Positions 44,440 through 54,000 of a stretch of DNA of 64,000 bases are shown here, in pieces. Under the pieces are notes generated by a model, which saw only the letters and a list, made by a program, of their open reading frames with translations, was not told where the DNA came from and ran no database searches. Numbering within the stretch: the stretch's first letter is position 1; each line of letters begins with the position of its first letter. The translations under genes were made by a program, and so were the position numbers. Where the stretch lies: NCBI RefSeq assembly GCF_963556105.2, contig NZ_OY829944.1:2267501-2331500 (forward strand), read 5' to 3'. Origin of the DNA: an uncultured Tolumonas sp. GTDB lineage: Bacteria; Pseudomonadota; Gammaproteobacteria; Enterobacterales; Aeromonadaceae.

Positions 44440-45630
44440 TCAAAGCACCGCAGCGATACCATCAATCAGTGCATCAATGTTACTTCTGGTAATACCAGCA
44501 ACACTGATTCGGCCAGAACCGACAATATAAATCGCGAATTCTTTGTTCAGACGAGTCACTTGTTCTTTATTCAAACCAGAGAATGAGAACATGCCATTTT
44601 GTTCAGTGATGAAACTGAAATCCTGCTGAATGCCTTTCGCTTTCAGTTTCTGTACGAACAATTCGCGCATTTCCCAAATGCGGTCACGCATGGCTTTGAC
44701 TTCGGCGATCCACTCAGCGCGCAGAGCTGCATCTTTCAGCACTGTCGCGACCACTGCAGCACCGTGCGATGGTGGGTTAGAGTAGTTTGCGCGAATGGTA
44801 GTTTTGATCTGGCTGAAGGCACGCAGTGCAACTTCCGAGTTATCAGTGATCAGCGTAATGGCACCTACACGCTCATTATACAAACCAAAGTTTTTAGAGA
44901 AGGAGCTAGCTACCAGCAACTCTTTGTTATACTTAGCAAAAGTACGCAGACCCGCCGCATCTTCTTCAACGCCACGACCGAAGCCTTGATAAGCAAAGTC
45001 GAAGAATGGCAGCAACTTACGTTCCGCACAGAACTTTGCTAACACTTCCCACTGTTCCAGTGATGGATCAACGCCGGTTGGGTTATGGCAGCAGCCATGC
45101 AACAGCACTACATCACCTTCTACTGCAGCAGACAATGATTCCAGCATGCCGTTAAAATCGAGGTTTTTATTCGCGGCATCGTAGTAACGGTATTCCGCCG
45201 TTTCCATGCCCGCAACACCGAACACTTGGAAATGGTTTACCCAAGTCGGATTAGAGATCCAAACTTTTTTAGAAATGCCCTGGCGAAACAAAAATTCAGC
45301 ACCAATACGCAATGCGCCAGTGCCGCCCGGTGCCTGTGCCGTTTTAGCTCGTTTGCTGGTCACAATTTCATGGTCAGCACCAAACAACAGTTCTTGCACC
45401 AGTTGACCATATTCCAGATTACCCTCGATGCTCAGGTAATTTTTGGTACTTTCTTTTTCCAGCAGAATTTTTTCTGCCTTTTTTACACAGTTGAGAATTG
45501 GCGTGGCACCCGCTTCATCTTTATAAATACCAACACCCAGATTGATTTTGTTAGTGCGCGGGTCATTACGGAATTCTTCGGTTAAACCCAAAATAGGGTC
45601 GGCTGGAGCCTGAGTCACCTTCTCAAACAT
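44440..45630 (-). CDS. aspC: Aspartate aminotransferase
   Basis: 396 residues, the same length as E. coli AspC. The PLP lysine is in [16 protein letters not shown], the substrate-binding segment in [13 protein letters not shown], and the C-terminal arginine in GRISVAGI. It makes aspartate from oxaloacetate and glutamate; TyrB-like aromatic activity cannot be excluded. An AGGA site precedes the ATG. It is transcribed alone between a bidirectional terminator and the JetD-like gene. Confidence 0.93.
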
Positions 45631-45738: not shown

Positions 45739-46665
45739 CTATGTCAGGTGGATCCAGTTTTTTGCGTAAACCATGACCTGTTGTGGCAGTTTTTGCTGGT
45801 TCTCAAAGAGGAATTGCAAACTTATTTGCTGCTGACGTGTCAGACCCGCGAATGCCCATTTCTCGTTCGCCGCAAGCGGTTCACCCAATAGTCGCAGATA
45901 GTCCGACCAGTTATCCGGTAAAAACAGCGCCAGTGGCCGCTGTAAGCGCTCAGCAAAAGCAGCAGCCAGATGTAAACTTTCCGGTGACAGGTCACCGAAA
46001 TGACGCCAGTGAATACTATCCGTCAAGGAACGCAGTAACTGCTCAGCCATTGTTGTATTGAGAAGCGGCGCATGGAGCAACAACGTGTCAGCAGGTAACG
46101 CCATACTGACAAACGCATCACGGTTATCAATTGTGATCACGTGTTGTGGCGGTTTTTCCTTCCAAAGAATTTTTGTAATCGCACTAATCGCTCTTTCAGG
46201 AATGGCCACCTCGCCCCATGCACTGAATAAGCTGCTGACATCGATCAACTCACCTGATTGCATAAAAATACTGCACGGTAAGTTACACCGTAGTAGCAAA
46301 TAACTATCTCGCAAGACATTAATATCATGCTCACGCATCTGCTCTTGCGTGGTCTTAGGATCTTGTTTGAGTAAATAGGCCAGAATACGGCTGTTGCATT
46401 GCGCTGGTAACTGAATATCGAGTTGCTGTAATAATAGCTCCAGTGAACGCTCATTTTGGTTCAGCAAATAGTGTTGGAAAGTTTGTTCACCTGCATCCGT
46501 TAAAAGAAAGATGCCCTCACCTTGAGCCGTAACCCAGCCTTGCTGTAACCACAGGTTGAGTTGAATAATGGCCCAGCGCTTACGAATGCGGATCTGCCGT
46601 TTATCCAATAACCGGACGATCAATTCTGGCGGTGCTGAACTCAATATTTGCTCTGGGCTCATCAT
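45739..46665 (-). CDS. JetD-like protein downstream of mukB (degenerate TOPRIM)
   Basis: A 308-residue protein, same strand as mukB and 49 bases after it. The N-terminus (about residues 1-65) looks like a winged helix (KRWAIIQLNLWLQQGWV, FLLTDAGEQTF). The C-terminal half follows the pattern of the JetD C-terminal (DUF2220) TOPRIM domain: a strand ending ITIDNRDAFVSMALP where JetD has V-x-E-N, and later HFGDLSPESLHLAAAF where JetD has Y-W-G-D-x-D-x-x-G. Here the Glu is Asp (D180) and the second acidic residue of DxD is Ser (S227), so nuclease activity is doubtful. Gene order F-E-B-(D) equals jetABCD. Homology is judged by eye; a MukBEF-loading or regulatory factor is the guess. Confidence 0.55.
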   Translation of the reverse strand: MMSPEQILSSAPPELIVRLLDKRQIRIRKRWAIIQLNLWLQQGWVTAQGEGIFLLTDAGEQTFQHYLLNQNERSLELLLQQLDIQLPAQCNSRILAYLLKQDPKTTQEQMREHDINVLRDSYLLLRCNLPCSIFMQSGELIDVSSLFSAWGEVAIPERAISAITKILWKEKPPQHVITIDNRDAFVSMALPADTLLLHAPLLNTTMAEQLLRSLTDSIHWRHFGDLSPESLHLAAAFAERLQRPLALFLPDNWSDYLRLLGEPLAANEKWAFAGLTRQQQISLQFLFENQQKLPQQVMVYAKNWIHLT

Positions 46666-46687
46666 TCTTTCTTGTTATCCAAAAGAA

Positions 46688-46707
46688 AAGGCAGCCAAGG
46701 CTGCCTT
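46688..46707 (-). terminator. Terminator between mukB and the JetD-like gene
   Basis: Minus-strand perfect palindrome AAGGCAGCCTTGGCTGCCTT followed by TTCTTTT. It would cut most mukB transcripts before the fourth gene, leaving it to read-through or its own promoter. Confidence 0.85.
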
Positions 46708-46714
46708 CTATTCA

Positions 46715-49700
46715 TTATGCACTCAATGGCATATCACTACTGCCACCAAAGCCACGTAAACCAACCACATGCACATGCTCTTGTTTACCATGTACTTTAC
46801 GGATCAGTTTGTAGGTCGTGCCTTTTTCCGGGCTGATATTTTCTGGTGCAGCAATCAACAACTGCATATCTTGTCGTTCACACAGCTCAAAGAGTGTCGC
46901 AATCGACTTAGCATCCAGACGTGCCGCTTCATCAAGGAACAACAGACGGCAAGGTTCAATATCGCTGCTACGCAGACGGCGATTTTCATCTTCCCAGCTT
47001 TGCAGCACCATCAGCAAAATTGCCTGACCCGTACCAATCGCTTCACCGGTCGACAAAGCACCACTTTCTGCACGTAACCAGCCATCAACGCCACGCAACA
47101 CCTCAATTTCCAACTCAAGGTAATTGCGATAATCAAGCAGCGCTTCACCCAACACTTGGAAGCTGCGCTCACCTTGATCGATGTGCGGATTCAGGCGTTG
47201 GAACAGCTTCGCCATTGCCTCGGAGAAAGTCAGTTCGTTGCTGGCGAACAGATCCTGATGTTGCTGCGCGTGTTCGCCCAGCGTTTGCAATAAACGCGCA
47301 TACGATTCACGCACGTTCACATTCAAGCGCACGCCACGCACCTGACCGAAGGTGATGTTTTGCAGCCCTTGGTTCATCACGCGAATACGATTTTGCTCAC
47401 GACGAATGATGTTAGTGATCTTCGCCGCCACTTCATGTGACGAGAGCGATAGATGCGTTTCACGCTGTTTCAATTCATCGGCCAGACGCGCCAGCTCAAT
47501 TTCCATCTCTTCAATTGCGTCAATTGGGTCATCAGAACGGATAATGTCATGACGAATGCGATCTTTCAGATAGCGATAGACCTGAATATAAAACTGCACT
47601 TTCTGCTCAGTCTGGCGATTGCCTTCTGATAAACGCAGCGTGTCGCGCAGTGAATCATCCTTCACCACCGCTAACCGCAATGCACCCAGCGACTTATCCG
47701 ACATGGAACGCAGCTCTTCTGCATCCAGATAAGCCAGCTCACGGCGATTTAGCTGTTTTTCCACGCCATTTGTGCGCGCCAGCGTTAAGACACGACTCCA
47801 GTTTTTCTTGTGTTCCAATAACAGATGACGCGCGGCACGGTATTCTTTGTTTTCCGCATTGAAGCGCTGGTTCAGGCTATCGATGTCACGGCGACAGATC
47901 TGGTATTGCGTTTCCGCTTGTGTACGGCGACTGCGGGTACGCACCAACTGATCTTCCAGATCGCGCTTTTTATTTCTCGCCTGATCTTCCATATCGGCAG
48001 CAACTTGCAGACCCATTTGCTGCAATTCACGTTCAAATTCCTGCAAGGTTTGCGTTTTAGCCTGCAAGCTGGAATTCAACGCCGTCTGGATTTGTAGCGC
48101 TTCCTGATAACGTTGGGTGATCTGTTTCAGTTGTTCTGCTAATTGACGACGTAGCTGTTCCACATCGGCCACTTTTTGCTTCAACCGTTCACTGATTTCA
48201 GAGGTTTGACCCAACAAACTTTCGGCATCGTGATAGGCAAAATAGGCTCGACGGGCAAATAACTCGTCCAATGCAAACACCTGACGACGAACGGCAGTCA
48301 GTTGCTGTTCGGCAGCAAAACTGGCTTGCTGCAGCTCATCAAATGCAGCTGGGTCTTCGCGCAGCGCATCCAACAAGGTTTCCAGTTTCCGACACGCTTT
48401 ATCATGCTGATCGAGGAACTGCTGTGCACTTTGACACGCAACAAATTCAGCTTCTGCTTGTTGCAGGCGATCATTCAACGAATTATCAAACAGCAGATTA
48501 AATTGCGATTGCAAACGAGCCACCAACTGTTGCTGTTGTTGCAACGCCGTCACACGCTGGCGATATTGATGTTCATTTTGCTGTTGTTGCTGCAGATTGT
48601 TCTCTGCCTGACGGATCTCAGTTTGTAAAACAGCCAGTGCCGCCTCTGGGTCATCTTCAAATGCCACATGCAGATGCTCAGTCATAAACTGGCTGAGATG
48701 GTGATACAGACGATTCTGTTTTTGCTGCTCAAATGCCAGTTTGGCATACGTTTCAACAATTTCATCACGTTGCGCTGACAGCAGTTCAATACGTTGCTCA
48801 CGCGCGGCACGCCCAAATACCGGCACTTCAGGGTAACGTGAGTAACGAATTTCACGCTGGCTGGTGCGCACTAATACGGCTTTATCAAACTCGCTGGCAT
48901 CGTGCAGATTTTCATCAAACGCATCCGGGTTGCCTTGGATCAGATAAATATCTTCCGGTAATTCGGTCAGCGTATTCAGATGATTAATCGCACCTTCCAG
49001 ATCAACCACCACGATGGCACTGCGAGCAGGGCCAAACAACGCGGAATAATACGGCGCATCGTCAAGAGAGATATCGTCATACACATCGGTCAGCAGCACA
49101 CCGCCCAGTTGTTCGCAAATGCGCACTAACTGCGGATTTTCATTCCCAGCAAACTGCTGCAAATTACGCAGTTGTTGTTCTAAGCTCTCTTTTTGCTGCT
49201 GTAGCAGGCGTTTTTCCTGTTCCAACGAGCGCTCTTGTTCCAGCGTCCGTTGCAGCAGTTGACTGATGGCAACCGGCGAATCGAGCGTTTCACCGGTCAT
49301 TTCCTGCAGCTTTTCTAATTTCTCGTGCGCCAACAACCACGCCGGTGCTTTTTTACGTAACTGTTCAATCTGTTGACGTGTAGAATCAAGTTGATGATGC
49401 AACCGAATACGATCTTGCTGATCGTGTTCTAAGCGTTGTTGCAGATCATCTTGCTGTTCAGCTAACGCAGCAGCCAATTCACTCAACTGCTCATTGTCAT
49501 TCAGATCATACTGGTTGCCTTGTGATTCTAATTGGCGCAGCAGTTGTTCCTGAATGGTAATCAGTGCATTTTGCTGCTCCTGATTACGGCGAATATCCTG
49601 TAGCGCACTGTCAACCTGATTGCGACGCGCCACTAACGTGCGGTGTTCACGCGCTTGTTCAATCACTTTCTGCGCCTGCTCCCACGCCTGTTCACGCGAG

Positions 49701-51166
49701 ATCGGGCCAGTGATTTGCTGTAAGGTAGTAAACGCCTGTTCGTATTGATCAGCTGCTGCTTTCGCTAAACGCAGACGCTGTTGCAACGACAACATTTGAT
49801 CGGTCGCTTGTTGTTCTTGGTCGCGTAACGTCTGCTGAAAACCAGCCACGTTATCTGGGGTCAAATCAGCCAGATCGCACAATGTTTGCGCTTGTTCCAA
49901 TGCTTTAACTGCTTGCTGATATTGGATCGCCCGCGTCTGCTGCACATCCAGCGCCTGCTGGTAATCAGCCAGCTGACTTTTCAGACTGTCGGCTTCGTCT
50001 TCACTTTGTGATTTCCGCAGCTCTAGCTCAGCTTTTTCTTCCGACAATTCCAGTGTAATGGCTGACTGCTCTTCCGCTTTAATGCTCAGATCTTCAACAT
50101 CTTCACGATATTGCACAATCTTGTTGGTCAAGCCCGTCGCCGCCATCACTTTCGCCAGATGTTCGGCGGCTAATTCCAGATCTTCGGTCAGATGTTTTTC
50201 ACGAGCCCCCATCTGTTCAGCTTCTTCCGCCAGATAAATCGCTCGCTGTTTTTCCTCACGGATCAGGCGCTGTTTATCCTGCAACTGTTTACGCCCATGC
50301 AGCGCCAATTCGGATAAACGGTTCTTTTCGCTCTGATTACGCACATAATCCGCCGCCACATAATTAGTGGTTTCGGTGATCAAATGACGGAACAGATCGC
50401 GTTGCGACTGTGTTTCTTTGATGGCATCCAGCGTACGGCGGTTTTCATGGATCGCGGCTTCCATATCCTGAAACGCTTTTCGTACACCAGAATTTTCGGG
50501 CAGCAAATATTCACGCAGCGAACGGCTGATGGAAGATGAAATACCGCCATACAAAGATGCTTCGATCAGACGATAGAATCTGGAGCGATCACGTTGATCA
50601 CGGAGTTTCTTCGCCGTCACGCCGTATTCAAACATCACGTTGTGATAATCGGTCACCGAATTGAATTTGACGAAACGAATCGCCCCCAGTTCTGCCGCTT
50701 GCTTACGCAGTTCGTTAAACGGGCGAACTTTTGCTTTGTCGCTGTCTAATTTTTCCAACAAGAAATCAGTCGGTTGCAGCGCTGCAGGCACATCAAGCAG
50801 ACAAAATGGCGTAATATTGACTTTGTTATCGCGATTAGCCACTTGCTCTAAGTGCACACCAAACCACAAACGTTGCCCTTTGGAATTGAGCACATCAATC
50901 AGGGAATAGCAGTGACCACGTTGTAATTTACCGTATAAGCCACGATCACGGCTGGCCGAAGAGCTGCCGGCTTCTGTCGTATTGCGGAAATGCAGCAACG
51001 TCTGATCAGGGATCAGTGCCGTGATTAACGCGGCCATGCTGGTCGATTTACCCGCACCGTTACCGCCGGATAATGTCGTCACCATCTGATCGAGCTCAAA
51101 GGTACGGGCAAAAAAGCCGTTCCAATTGATCATGGTGAAAGAGAGGAATTTACCGCGCGTGATCAT
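46715..51166 (-). CDS. mukB: Chromosome partition protein MukB
   Basis: 1483 residues, nearly the E. coli length (1486). Walker A GGNGAGKSTSMAALI lies near residue 34, long glutamine-rich coiled coils flank a hinge at about residues 650-790, and the C-terminal head has LSTGEAIGTGQAIL and Walker B LLFLDEAARLD. With MukE and MukF it forms the SMC-type condensin that compacts and segregates the chromosome. Its ATG overlaps the mukE stop by 4 bases (ATGA). Confidence 0.99.
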   Translation of the reverse strand: MITRGKFLSFTMINWNGFFARTFELDQMVTTLSGGNGAGKSTSMAALITALIPDQTLLHFRNTTEAGSSSASRDRGLYGKLQRGHCYSLIDVLNSKGQRLWFGVHLEQVANRDNKVNITPFCLLDVPAALQPTDFLLEKLDSDKAKVRPFNELRKQAAELGAIRFVKFNSVTDYHNVMFEYGVTAKKLRDQRDRSRFYRLIEASLYGGISSSISRSLREYLLPENSGVRKAFQDMEAAIHENRRTLDAIKETQSQRDLFRHLITETTNYVAADYVRNQSEKNRLSELALHGRKQLQDKQRLIREEKQRAIYLAEEAEQMGAREKHLTEDLELAAEHLAKVMAATGLTNKIVQYREDVEDLSIKAEEQSAITLELSEEKAELELRKSQSEDEADSLKSQLADYQQALDVQQTRAIQYQQAVKALEQAQTLCDLADLTPDNVAGFQQTLRDQEQQATDQMLSLQQRLRLAKAAADQYEQAFTTLQQITGPISREQAWEQAQKVIEQAREHRTLVARRNQVDSALQDIRRNQEQQNALITIQEQLLRQLESQGNQYDLNDNEQLSELAAALAEQQDDLQQRLEHDQQDRIRLHHQLDSTRQQIEQLRKKAPAWLLAHEKLEKLQEMTGETLDSPVAISQLLQRTLEQERSLEQEKRLLQQQKESLEQQLRNLQQFAGNENPQLVRICEQLGGVLLTDVYDDISLDDAPYYSALFGPARSAIVVVDLEGAINHLNTLTELPEDIYLIQGNPDAFDENLHDASEFDKAVLVRTSQREIRYSRYPEVPVFGRAAREQRIELLSAQRDEIVETYAKLAFEQQKQNRLYHHLSQFMTEHLHVAFEDDPEAALAVLQTEIRQAENNLQQQQQNEHQYRQRVTALQQQQQLVARLQSQFNLLFDNSLNDRLQQAEAEFVACQSAQQFLDQHDKACRKLETLLDALREDPAAFDELQQASFAAEQQLTAVRRQVFALDELFARRAYFAYHDAESLLGQTSEISERLKQKVADVEQLRRQLAEQLKQITQRYQEALQIQTALNSSLQAKTQTLQEFERELQQMGLQVAADMEDQARNKKRDLEDQLVRTRSRRTQAETQYQICRRDIDSLNQRFNAENKEYRAARHLLLEHKKNWSRVLTLARTNGVEKQLNRRELAYLDAEELRSMSDKSLGALRLAVVKDDSLRDTLRLSEGNRQTEQKVQFYIQVYRYLKDRIRHDIIRSDDPIDAIEEMEIELARLADELKQRETHLSLSSHEVAAKITNIIRREQNRIRVMNQGLQNITFGQVRGVRLNVNVRESYARLLQTLGEHAQQHQDLFASNELTFSEAMAKLFQRLNPHIDQGERSFQVLGEALLDYRNYLELEIEVLRGVDGWLRAESGALSTGEAIGTGQAILLMVLQSWEDENRRLRSSDIEPCRLLFLDEAARLDAKSIATLFELCERQDMQLLIAAPENISPEKGTTYKLIRKVHGKQEHVHVVGLRGFGGSSDMPLSA

Positions 51167-51885
51167 ATATCCAGCCCCAATTGCTCTTCATCTTCTTCTG
51201 CTTCATCCAGTGAATCCCATACGGTTTCACGGGTTGGTAATTCATCATCATGTAAAATCGCTTCGCCCTCGCGGATCATGCGTAACTGCACCACACGTGG
51301 GTCTTCGTCAGTGCGAACATCGGCAGCAAAGCGGAACACAGCTTCATTGACGCGAAATTTATCACCCACGCCGAGAGCGGTAACCATGCCTAACCGACGC
51401 AAACGCCGCATGGAGGTACGGATACGTTCCTGTAGCTTTTTCTTATCTAAGTCGGTGCCACCACTGCGCTGGTTGACCATGCGCAGTAATTGCCGTTCAT
51501 CAGCTAACGAAACCACCTCTTCCTGCAAATCGAGCAGTGAAAAGATACCTTCATTCGCCAAACGCTCAGGGCTGAGATAGAGATAACAAAGCACCTTACC
51601 CACCAGCATATCCAACTCAGACAGCACTGACGTGCCAATTTCAGAGGTTGAACGTGGGCGGATGTAGAAAAAACCTTCCGGCGCTTTAATTAATTCCACC
51701 TGATAACGGCTGTAAAAACTTTCCAGCTCATCATGATAATCAAGCAGATAAGAATGCTGATCTAAATCGTCGGCACTGATGTGTTTGCCACTGCGTAGCG
51801 CAGTATCCAATTTCGGAAACAGCGGGTTGGCAATCGCCTGTGCAAGGCGTAATGCGATAGGTAACTCAGTATTGATCAATGACAT
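51163..51885 (-). CDS. mukE: Chromosome partition protein MukE
   Basis: 240 residues from ATG 51883-51885 with AAGG about 9 bases upstream, overlapping the end of mukF by 20 bases. It is a tandem winged-helix protein (PIALRLAQAIANPLFPKLDTALRSGKHIS, YLSPERLANEGIFS). MukE dimers bind MukF and DNA and regulate MukB ATPase. The acidic tail (DEAEEDEEQLGLDI) is typical. Confidence 0.98.
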   Translation of the reverse strand: MSLINTELPIALRLAQAIANPLFPKLDTALRSGKHISADDLDQHSYLLDYHDELESFYSRYQVELIKAPEGFFYIRPRSTSEIGTSVLSELDMLVGKVLCYLYLSPERLANEGIFSLLDLQEEVVSLADERQLLRMVNQRSGGTDLDKKKLQERIRTSMRRLRRLGMVTALGVGDKFRVNEAVFRFAADVRTDEDPRVVQLRMIREGEAILHDDELPTRETVWDSLDEAEEDEEQLGLDI

Positions 51886-53203
51886 GCGCTTGCACCTTAG
51901 CACCTAAATCGTTAATTGGTTTCCACTTCGGATGACGGGCACTGCTGAGTTCGGCACTGGAGTAACCCAGACGAACCGCTTGATCGACCAGCATTCTGGC
52001 GACATCAAAGTGTTGATATTCAGGGAATTGTTGCAGGTAATCTTTCAGCAGATCAGCCATATCGAGCGGCTTACCGTGCACTTGGAAATCGGCCAGATGG
52101 CTGCTGATATGCTCAGCAAGTTTTTCATCCAATGCCTGAATTTCCTGGAACTCCAGCGCAACGGGTAACTCACCGGTGATCTCATCGCTATGCAGCACCA
52201 GCGTTTCATCGCGCAGCTCTAGCAGACGGGCTTCTTGTGCAACCAGTAATAACCAGTTGTGATTATCAAAATCACGGATCGATTCACGCAAGCGCTGGCT
52301 GAACACGCGGTTTTTATCCATATCAATCGCATTACGGATAAATTTATGCACATGGCGGTCATAGCGCGCCCACAGCTCGATACACTGCTGGCCCCAGCTC
52401 AGAATTGCGTCAATACGGCTTTGTAACTCAAAGGTCAGGTGTTCAACCTGCACCGACGTAATCGCCTGCGTACGGGCGGTTTCCTGAATGTTCAGCAAAC
52501 CCGACTGCAATTTATGCCCAGCGGCATCAAGCGTATCTTGCAATTCACGCAGTGTTTGACCGGTTTCACGCAGTAACTTTTCACAGTTATGGATGGCCTG
52601 CGTCCAGTTCTGATTCAAAAGATCAGCAATCTCGGCTTTGACCTGATTTTGTTGATCATCCATCGCCCTTTGAGTCAGGTCGATACGACTTAAGATCTCT
52701 TCCACCGAATATTTCAGGCGCGGGTAAACTTCTTTTTCCCAAGCGGAATCATCATTTGCATGAATTGCTGCGGTATAAGCTTTATCTAACTCACCAGCGA
52801 CCTGCTCTAACAGCAGTGACAGTTTGACACTGTTGACCTGCTGTTGATCAACATAAAACTCGATGATCCCCACCGCTAATCGCGTCAAACGATAGACACT
52901 TTCACCCGCTACAGGGTCGGTGTTAAAACGCGATAGCAGTCGTTGGCGGACAAGTTCATTGATCGCGTTATTGGCACGCACCGACAGCGTTTCGTCCATC
53001 AAACCATATAACTGGCTGACGTAACTAAACGCATCATGCAATGCGGCTTCGCTTAATTCCTGCGTTTGCTCATCCCGTGCCATTGAGGATATCGCGATCA
53101 GAAACGCCAGACGTTCATTACTAAGATGAAGTTCCAGCTGTTCCTGTTTCACCCAACCGACTAATTCCGGCAGGCTGCGCTCAGGCCTAAGTTGTTCGGT
53201 CAT
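51866..53203 (-). CDS. mukF: Chromosome partition kleisin MukF
   Basis: 445 residues (E. coli 440). It has an N-terminal winged-helix dimerisation domain (PELVGWVKQEQLELHLSNERLAFLIAI), a middle helical bundle that touches the MukB neck, and a C-terminal winged helix that touches the MukB head. The gene follows cmoM after 23 bases, giving the order cmoM-mukF-mukE-mukB known from enterobacteria. Confidence 0.98.
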   Translation of the reverse strand: MTEQLRPERSLPELVGWVKQEQLELHLSNERLAFLIAISSMARDEQTQELSEAALHDAFSYVSQLYGLMDETLSVRANNAINELVRQRLLSRFNTDPVAGESVYRLTRLAVGIIEFYVDQQQVNSVKLSLLLEQVAGELDKAYTAAIHANDDSAWEKEVYPRLKYSVEEILSRIDLTQRAMDDQQNQVKAEIADLLNQNWTQAIHNCEKLLRETGQTLRELQDTLDAAGHKLQSGLLNIQETARTQAITSVQVEHLTFELQSRIDAILSWGQQCIELWARYDRHVHKFIRNAIDMDKNRVFSQRLRESIRDFDNHNWLLLVAQEARLLELRDETLVLHSDEITGELPVALEFQEIQALDEKLAEHISSHLADFQVHGKPLDMADLLKDYLQQFPEYQHFDVARMLVDQAVRLGYSSAELSSARHPKWKPINDLGAKVQAHVIDQY

Positions 53204-53226: not shown

Positions 53227-54000
53227 TTACTGACACGGCTTACTGGCCAGCACATGCATATAACGCCCTAAATGGACGAACGGCTCTTGCTGACAATAAC
53301 GTAATTCCATTTCCAATAAATCGGAAAACTTTTTGTACTGATCTTCTTTATGCCGCATGTAGTCGTGGATCACACGCACGCCACTGCGACACAACAGTGG
53401 CATCTGCCATTCTGCCAGCCATTGGTACACATCCGCGGGTGTTTGCGGGTTGGTCGGTGTCAGTTTTTGCTGCCGTTTTTTTACCAGACCAGCACGGATG
53501 TAGTCAAAATTCCCGACTACCAGACTTTGAAACAACAACGCATCACGGTTGTAAAACAGTAATGAAAACAGCCCGCCCGGCTTCAGATAATGCAACAACC
53601 CAACGAGGGTCTGTTTCGGATCAGCCAGCCATTCGACAACCGCATGACACAGCACAAAATCAAATGTGCCATCTACGTGTTCAGGCAGATCCTGAATGGC
53701 GCAATGCACTAAACGGATGCGCTCCGTCAGCCCTTTTTCAGCAATTTGTTCTTTCGCCAGTTCCAGCATATCGGCTGAAAGATCACATAATGTGACATCA
53801 TGCCCCAGAGCAGCCAGTTTTTGCGCAAAAAAACCAAAACCACCACCGGCATCTAAAATGCGTAACTTTTGATTACCAAAGCGCGCCAGCCCTTGTTCCA
53901 GATCTCGCCAGACAACCGCGGTACGGATCTGTCCTTTACTGGTGGCATAGATGTTCTGTGCAAATTTCTCTGACAGCCCATCAAAAGAGTGATCTGACAT
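53227..54000 (-). CDS. cmoM: tRNA 5-carboxymethoxyuridine methyltransferase
   Basis: 257 residues (E. coli CmoM/SmtA 261). The SAM-binding motif is ILDAGGGFGFFAQKLAALGHDVTLCD, then VLCHAVVEWLADP. CmoM methylates cmo5U34 in certain tRNAs to widen decoding. It is the first gene of the muk operon, divergent from elyC, as in E. coli. No ribosome site stands out beyond AAGG-like bases. Confidence 0.95.
   Translation of the reverse strand: MSDHSFDGLSEKFAQNIYATSKGQIRTAVVWRDLEQGLARFGNQKLRILDAGGGFGFFAQKLAALGHDVTLCDLSADMLELAKEQIAEKGLTERIRLVHCAIQDLPEHVDGTFDFVLCHAVVEWLADPKQTLVGLLHYLKPGGLFSLLFYNRDALLFQSLVVGNFDYIRAGLVKKRQQKLTPTNPQTPADVYQWLAEWQMPLLCRSGVRVIHDYMRHKEDQYKKFSDLLEMELRYCQQEPFVHLGRYMHVLASKPCQ

Follow-up and report, generated by a model that had tools for sequence, protein, structure and literature searches.

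The stretch of DNA examined here (the window; 64,000 nucleotides from an uncultured Tolumonas sp.) carries, on its minus strand, a mukF-mukE-mukB locus followed by a gene, referred to below as X, that encodes a catalytically degenerate homologue of JetD/MksG. X lies at 45739..46665 and encodes 308 amino acids, exactly the reading frame put forward in an earlier interpretation made from the letters alone (the sequence-only reading). Its assignment draws on the ORF list, the family matches of its relatives, hhalign, AlphaFold2, structure matches and dN/dS. All other features described in the window are also on the minus strand. Upstream of X lie mukB (46715..51166, 1483 aa), mukE (51163..51903, 246 aa, counted from the listed GTG start), mukF (51866..53203, 445 aa) and, before mukF, a cmoM-like methyltransferase gene (53227..54000) that was named in the sequence-only reading. 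The stop of mukB and the start of X are 49 bp apart, and downstream of X lies an aspartate aminotransferase gene (44440..45630), which neighbours X in most relatives. The genome measures 4.0 Mb in 6 contigs and holds one MukB match, that of the window; with mukF, mukE and mukB codirectional after cmoM and in single copy, this is a housekeeping MukBEF locus. The ORF order and the single MukB match thus bear out the proposal that the gene order is Wadjet-like while the partner is the normal MukBEF with cmoM in front. Genera are labelled by number: g1 is the genus of the window, g4 is Aeromonas and g17 is Motilimonas, the last two recognized by X proteins identical to named records.

Searched alone, X matched no profile of Pfam, NCBIfam or PADLOC, staying below the cut-offs of Pfam and PADLOC; by its own profile membership it belongs to neither Pfam JetD_C nor PADLOC JetD (0 families), and its link to JetD is drawn only via its relatives. 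In the X family alignment, JetD_C was matched by 7 of 17 rows (best 5.3e-12) and PADLOC JetD1 also by 7 of 17 (best 8.8e-14), the matches coming from relatives with intact active-site acids. When an alignment of 5 JetD rows was compared by hhalign with an X family alignment of 30 rows (prob 91.6, E 8e-7), it paired exactly the two segments of X that the sequence-only reading had lined up with the TOPRIM segments of JetD, ITIDNRDAF and HFGDLSPES, and in addition a third, RLEQER with KLPQQV. The AlphaFold2 model of X (pLDDT 90.9) had MksG, topoisomerase VI A and JetD as its leading structural matches; both the model and the matches contain the TOPRIM fold, together with a CAP-like domain, and they bear out the suspected winged-helix-like N-terminus. 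The N-terminal winged-helix domain (MarR/ArsR-like) spans codons 1-78 (46432..46665) and the Toprim domain codons 160-308 (45742..46188, boundary approximate). Family membership of X is based on sequence homology and on conserved positions outside the active site (alignments A1 and A3), and the matches of the family search were 29-88% identical. Neither the profile of alignment A3, searched against PDB sequences, nor the X protein of genome G401, searched by phmmer, gave a match. Pfam DUF7281 was considered as the family of X and rejected: it matched 7 of 17 members weakly (best 1.9e-4) and fell below the cut-off in members shown singly. From the profile matches of its relatives, hhalign and the fold, X is a JetD homologue, as had been claimed.

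Among 75 Aeromonadaceae genomes, MukE was found in 70 and X in 48. X is present in 9 of 11 g1 genomes (the two misses are 63-70% complete), in all 37 Aeromonas genomes and in 2 of 3 g5 genomes (the missing one is 71% complete). It is absent from the sister genus g2 (0/23) and from the one g3 genome, which also has no MukE match. This g3 genome (G012) is a complete Aeromonadaceae genome showing no MukB, MukE or X. Order-wide, X matches occurred in 27 of 394 genomes and 4 of 115 genera, and class-wide in 4 of 369 genomes including that of the window, of which two are short or weak; because both surveys scored only the first few candidates in each genome, X may have been missed in some. Two or more X matches were found in 25 of the 37 Aeromonas genomes, the extra match being partial or broken in at least three (G776, G778, G781). 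Many Aeromonas genomes carry, besides an altered copy linked to the aminotransferase gene (type A), a second, intact copy a few kb past mukB (type I; loci L038, L041, L043, L045, L047 and L119-L138). Type-I copies form a separate clade in the X tree; in 11 Aeromonas genomes, nine of them sit on the strand of mukB, 2.4-10.3 kb downstream of it, one lies 31 kb off on the other side of mukB and one is on another contig.

The X tree (63 rows, careful method, partial rows L129 and L131 left out) has the order (Motilimonas, ((g5, g1), Aeromonas type A)), with joining-branch supports of 98/77 (not starred), 97/88 and 100/99; where it is rooted is uncertain, and a divergent row (L151) is placed on the wrong side. 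For MukB, a tree of 37 rows made by the quick method, without bootstrap or outside root, has the order (Motilimonas, (g2, (Aeromonas, (g5, g1)))). The two agree in order, and X therefore fits vertical descent with MukB, its absence from g2 reading as a loss. The trees of Aeromonadaceae and Motilimonas do not suggest that X is a mobile gene, with the type-I Aeromonas copy as a possible exception. Retention of X by MukBEF since an ancestral defence stage was considered and is the less simple reading: in the tree of housekeeping MukB, which is unrooted, X occurs only in Motilimonas and Aeromonadaceae, and one gain and one loss would be simpler than retention with several losses.

Outside these genera, members of the X family lie in divergent four-gene mukF-mukE-mukB-X clusters, among them L100:4842-12239 (G401), L143, L144, L146 and L148. 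In all 10 divergent loci a MukB-like gene is followed by an intact X; in seven of them genes like each of mukF, mukE and mukB were called, and contig ends cut some of the loci. In G401 and in a Planctomycetota MAG, the Pfam models of MukB, MukE and MukF match well, the PADLOC models of the Wadjet core give weak matches or none, and the JetD model does match X. The G401 cluster adjoins AbiE- and CBASS-like genes, as judged by eye. These clusters may represent a Wadjet type that is not listed and stands close to MukBEF.

Catalytic residues were placed by counting along a JetD-MksG alignment, in which the Glu of 'EN' corresponds to MksG E236, the first Asp of 'GDxD' to D279 and the 'EQE' close to the C-terminus to E349/E351. 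According to excerpts of PMC10123090, the MksG substitutions E236A and D279A each drastically impair cutting, and the two C-terminal glutamates are proposed as alternative nucleophiles. Four of these five acids are replaced in X. The catalytic Glu (MksG E236; E248 in the E248A JetD of 8q72) is Asp at codon 180 (46126..46128); the first Asp of the DxD motif is kept at codon 225 (45991..45993; MksG D279), and the second is Ser at codon 227 (45985..45987), giving D225-L-S227; the C-terminal E-x-E is P294-Q-Q296 (codons 294-296, 45778..45786). The sequence-only reading had reported Glu to Asp and DxD to DxS, which is correct, and more acids are changed than it saw. Among 65 proteins of the X family, all five acids were found in 0 of 9 g1 proteins (all nine carry D, D, S, P, Q), 0 of 2 from g5, 0 of 20 Aeromonas type-A and 19 of 20 type-I copies, 3 of 4 from Motilimonas and 9 of 10 from divergent loci. 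Acids have been lost in four lineages, and different ones in different lineages, as expected once cutting had ceased to matter.

Judged by these residues, X is almost certainly without normal cutting chemistry, while a metal ion could still find ligands in D180 and D225. This last point is what stands of the suggestion that X belongs to a defence branch with altered chemistry. It is improbable that X is still a nuclease, working through D180, D225 and one metal, by which the housekeeping MukBEF would act on plasmids or foreign DNA. D225 is kept and the exchange of Glu for Asp is conservative in all nine g1 proteins, and in three of four Motilimonas an X with all five acids stands alongside a housekeeping MukBEF; but the second Asp and both ExE glutamates are absent from the same nine proteins, the MksG mutants cited above indicate a site that tolerates little, and other lineages have lost different acids.

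Despite the altered active site, the gene is conserved. dN/dS of X was 0.058-0.124 in 15 pairs among six close g1 genomes and 0.143 in one further pair (G007-G005); 20 of the 36 within-genus pairs were left out on account of saturated synonymous sites. For MukB, the values were 0.015-0.028 in the computable pairs. X is thus under purifying selection and evolves faster than MukB. In Aeromonas, median dN/dS was 0.176 for type A (147 pairs) and 0.271 for type I (43 pairs), counted without L012, L091, L129, L131 and L151 and without pairs of dS outside 0.1-1.2. That X plays no important part and is a remnant in decay, in the process of being lost, would fit the acid losses in four lineages, its faster evolution compared with MukBEF and its absence from the sister genus g2. 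We regard this as quite improbable, given the low dN/dS in the 15 g1 pairs, X matches in which no internal stop was found, the presence of X in every Aeromonas genome and replacement residues at the acid positions that are invariant throughout g1.

The linkage of X to mukB varies among relatives. Both genes are adjacent in 7 of 9 g1 genomes; G007 has a 2.3-kb insertion between them and in G005 they lie on different contigs. G005 also contains a 98-aa fragment of the MukB C-terminus near the intact mukB, and a transposase-like ORF (by eye) nearby (L104:4528-4824 and 601-1485), which may mark the route by which mukB and X were separated there. Motilimonas pumila has an altered X adjacent to mukB, and the remaining three Motilimonas have an intact X apart from mukB. 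In Aeromonas the two are apart as well. In the window, a terminator-like hairpin of 10 pairs with a T-rich tail (46686..46709) lies between mukB and X; the two strands of a 1.6-kb stretch together contained 4 terminator-like sites, where shuffled sequences had 1.6 on average. As read by eye, the same hairpin is present in 6 of 6 close g1 genomes, variants of it follow mukB in G002, G007 and G020, and none was seen in M. pumila. From the position of the hairpin, transcription of mukFEB probably ends mostly ahead of X. To call X a fourth gene of the operon, as was done at first, is accurate in that it follows mukB on the same strand and too strong in view of the hairpin and of the linkage lost in some relatives.

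The neighbourhood could be taken to mean that X is a stand-alone winged-helix regulator, for example of the aminotransferase gene or of mukFEB, unrelated to the MukBEF complex. Its N-terminus does resemble MarR/ArsR proteins, and the aminotransferase gene stays beside X even away from mukB, in 19 of 20 Aeromonas type-A loci. Such a role is nevertheless very unlikely, because X has JetD ancestry and stands behind mukB-like genes in all ten divergent clusters, co-occurs with a motif of MukE, and does not adjoin the aminotransferase gene in Motilimonas.

The MukE motif in question is EEQLGLDI, at the C-terminal end of the window protein (residues 239-246, 51166..51189), a candidate docking site for X. 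In X-carrying lineages the form EEQLxL[ED][VI] was found at or near the end of 51 of 52 MukE proteins, and of all 52 if one D is allowed for E, the exception being DEQLDLEV in G784; the set comprises 9 proteins from g1, 2 from g5, 37 from Aeromonas and 4 from Motilimonas. One genome, G008 (70% complete), has the motif and no X match. Lineages without X lack the motif (0/35), that is g2 (0/22) and other families (0/13); the 13 genomes of other families have no X within about 1.5 kb of mukB and none among the X matches listed. In a wider sample, alignments reached the last residue of the window MukE in 20 of 20 X-lineage genomes and in 0 of 100 others. MukE has 17 columns that are conserved in the X clade and not found in g2, 12 of them in residues 218-246; MukF has 5 such columns and MukB 39 (of 749 conserved columns). 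The co-occurrence of motif and X is a strong lead and no proof, since about one gain and one loss lie behind it. The motif is also missing from the divergent mukF-mukE-mukB-X clusters (0/7), where X is intact; judged from these sequences, docking there must differ.

Sliding-clamp binding proteins carry a hexapeptide motif, Q-L-x-L-x-L/F. The tail QLGLDI of the window MukE (51166-51189) resembles it and could link MukBEF to replication. The MukE tail might therefore serve something else, such as the replication sliding clamp, and coincide with X by chance. The variants QLGLDI, QLDLEV, QLELEV and QLGLEV all resemble the clamp motif, and few independent events lie behind the co-occurrence. Against this, g2 lacks both the motif and X, and among the open-licence literature matches listed nothing relevant concerned MukE and the sliding clamp, so that we consider a clamp-binding tail rather unlikely.

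On balance, X is somewhat more probably than otherwise the descendant of a JetD/MksG-type nuclease that has been kept as a non-cutting accessory of the housekeeping MukBEF, docked on the MukE tail. Its ancestor would have been a Toprim nuclease working with a MukBEF-like machine; after the loss of most catalytic acids the protein would have been retained by the condensin. X may dimerise via its Toprim domain, use its winged-helix and CAP-like parts to bind DNA in the manner of JetD, and dock on MukBEF by the conserved tail EEQLGLDI. It would then modulate the motor without cutting DNA, for example where two motors meet or at loading or release. For docking there is a parallel in Wadjet I, where, according to an excerpt of PMC10586767, JetD contacts the N-terminal IFDR motif of JetB, the counterpart of MukE. 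What was computed is the homology, the fold, the acid loss, the purifying selection, the MukB-compatible descent and the co-occurrence with the MukE motif, and the loss of cutting residues in a preserved protein suggests a defence nuclease turned helper of the chromosome machinery. Of the two options left by the sequence-only reading, the repurposed non-cutting cofactor is the better supported, by strong purifying selection despite acid loss, parallel losses, MukB-like trees and a MukE motif that tracks X; the cofactor role itself is one that we infer. The separation of mukB and X in 2 of 9 g1 genomes, in Aeromonas and in 3 of 4 Motilimonas, the hairpin between them and the faster evolution of X count against it.

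A bolder proposal, which we hold to be conceivable and doubtful, is that of a condensin with a domesticated, dead plasmid nuclease as a regular subunit on the MukE tail, an intermediate on the way from Wadjet to the chromosome, in which the dead copy of Aeromonas may restrain the active one. There, dead X would hold back or compete with intact X, and MukBEF would restrict plasmids under control. A JetD homologue accompanying the only MukBEF of its genomes, dead here and intact in close relatives, makes the Wadjet history of MukBEF testable, and the MukE tail offers a concrete candidate docking peptide. If confirmed, the locus would show either how a condensin takes over a disarmed defence nuclease as its cofactor or how a housekeeping condensin can still carry a nuclease.

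Compared with known systems, X resembles JetD/MksG of Wadjet JetABCD/MksBEFG in having a CAP-like part and a Toprim fold with the same order of active-site segments, and in the place of its gene, behind that for the SMC protein in an operon of MukBEF type. It differs in the replaced acids, in its length (X has 308 aa, including a compact winged helix at the N-terminus, and the JetD rows used have about 400) and in its partner genes, which are the only MukBEF of the genome and not a Wadjet core. The window's genome gave no match to JetD_C, and next to its single housekeeping-type MukB no dedicated JetABC core was found besides the chromosomal condensin, the window's MukF, MukE and MukB being outside the PADLOC scan. 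Wadjet sets of the same order (G050, G059, G037) were tried as members of the X family and rejected; their JetD-like genes are not X by BLAST, with weak matches to the G401 protein only (E 8.6e-4 and 5.5e-6). The divergent clusters (G401, Planctomycetota, Endozoicomonas, Vibrio tetraodonis and others) share with the window the family of X and its position after MukB; they differ from it by nearly always full sets of acids, a MukB that is 26-33% identical to that of the window in most rows, and the missing MukE tail motif. Topoisomerase VI A/Spo11 is distant from X (13% identity, catalytic acids changed), and nothing in X points to strand passage or to a partner B subunit. Wadjet is suggested as the origin of MukBEF in the excerpted part of a review (PMC10586767). 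We found no open-licence paper on DUF7281, on Wadjet with MukBEF and Aeromonas, or on Tolumonas mukB. The housekeeping MukBEF of Enterobacterales is like that of the window in its single-copy MukF, MukE and MukB with cmoM in front. In excerpts of PMC7617805 (2025), MukBEF is described as being without MksG/JetD, and for operons that gave no hit the flanking genes were checked there by AlphaFold2; unlike MukBEF as so described, that of the window is accompanied by a degenerate JetD homologue.
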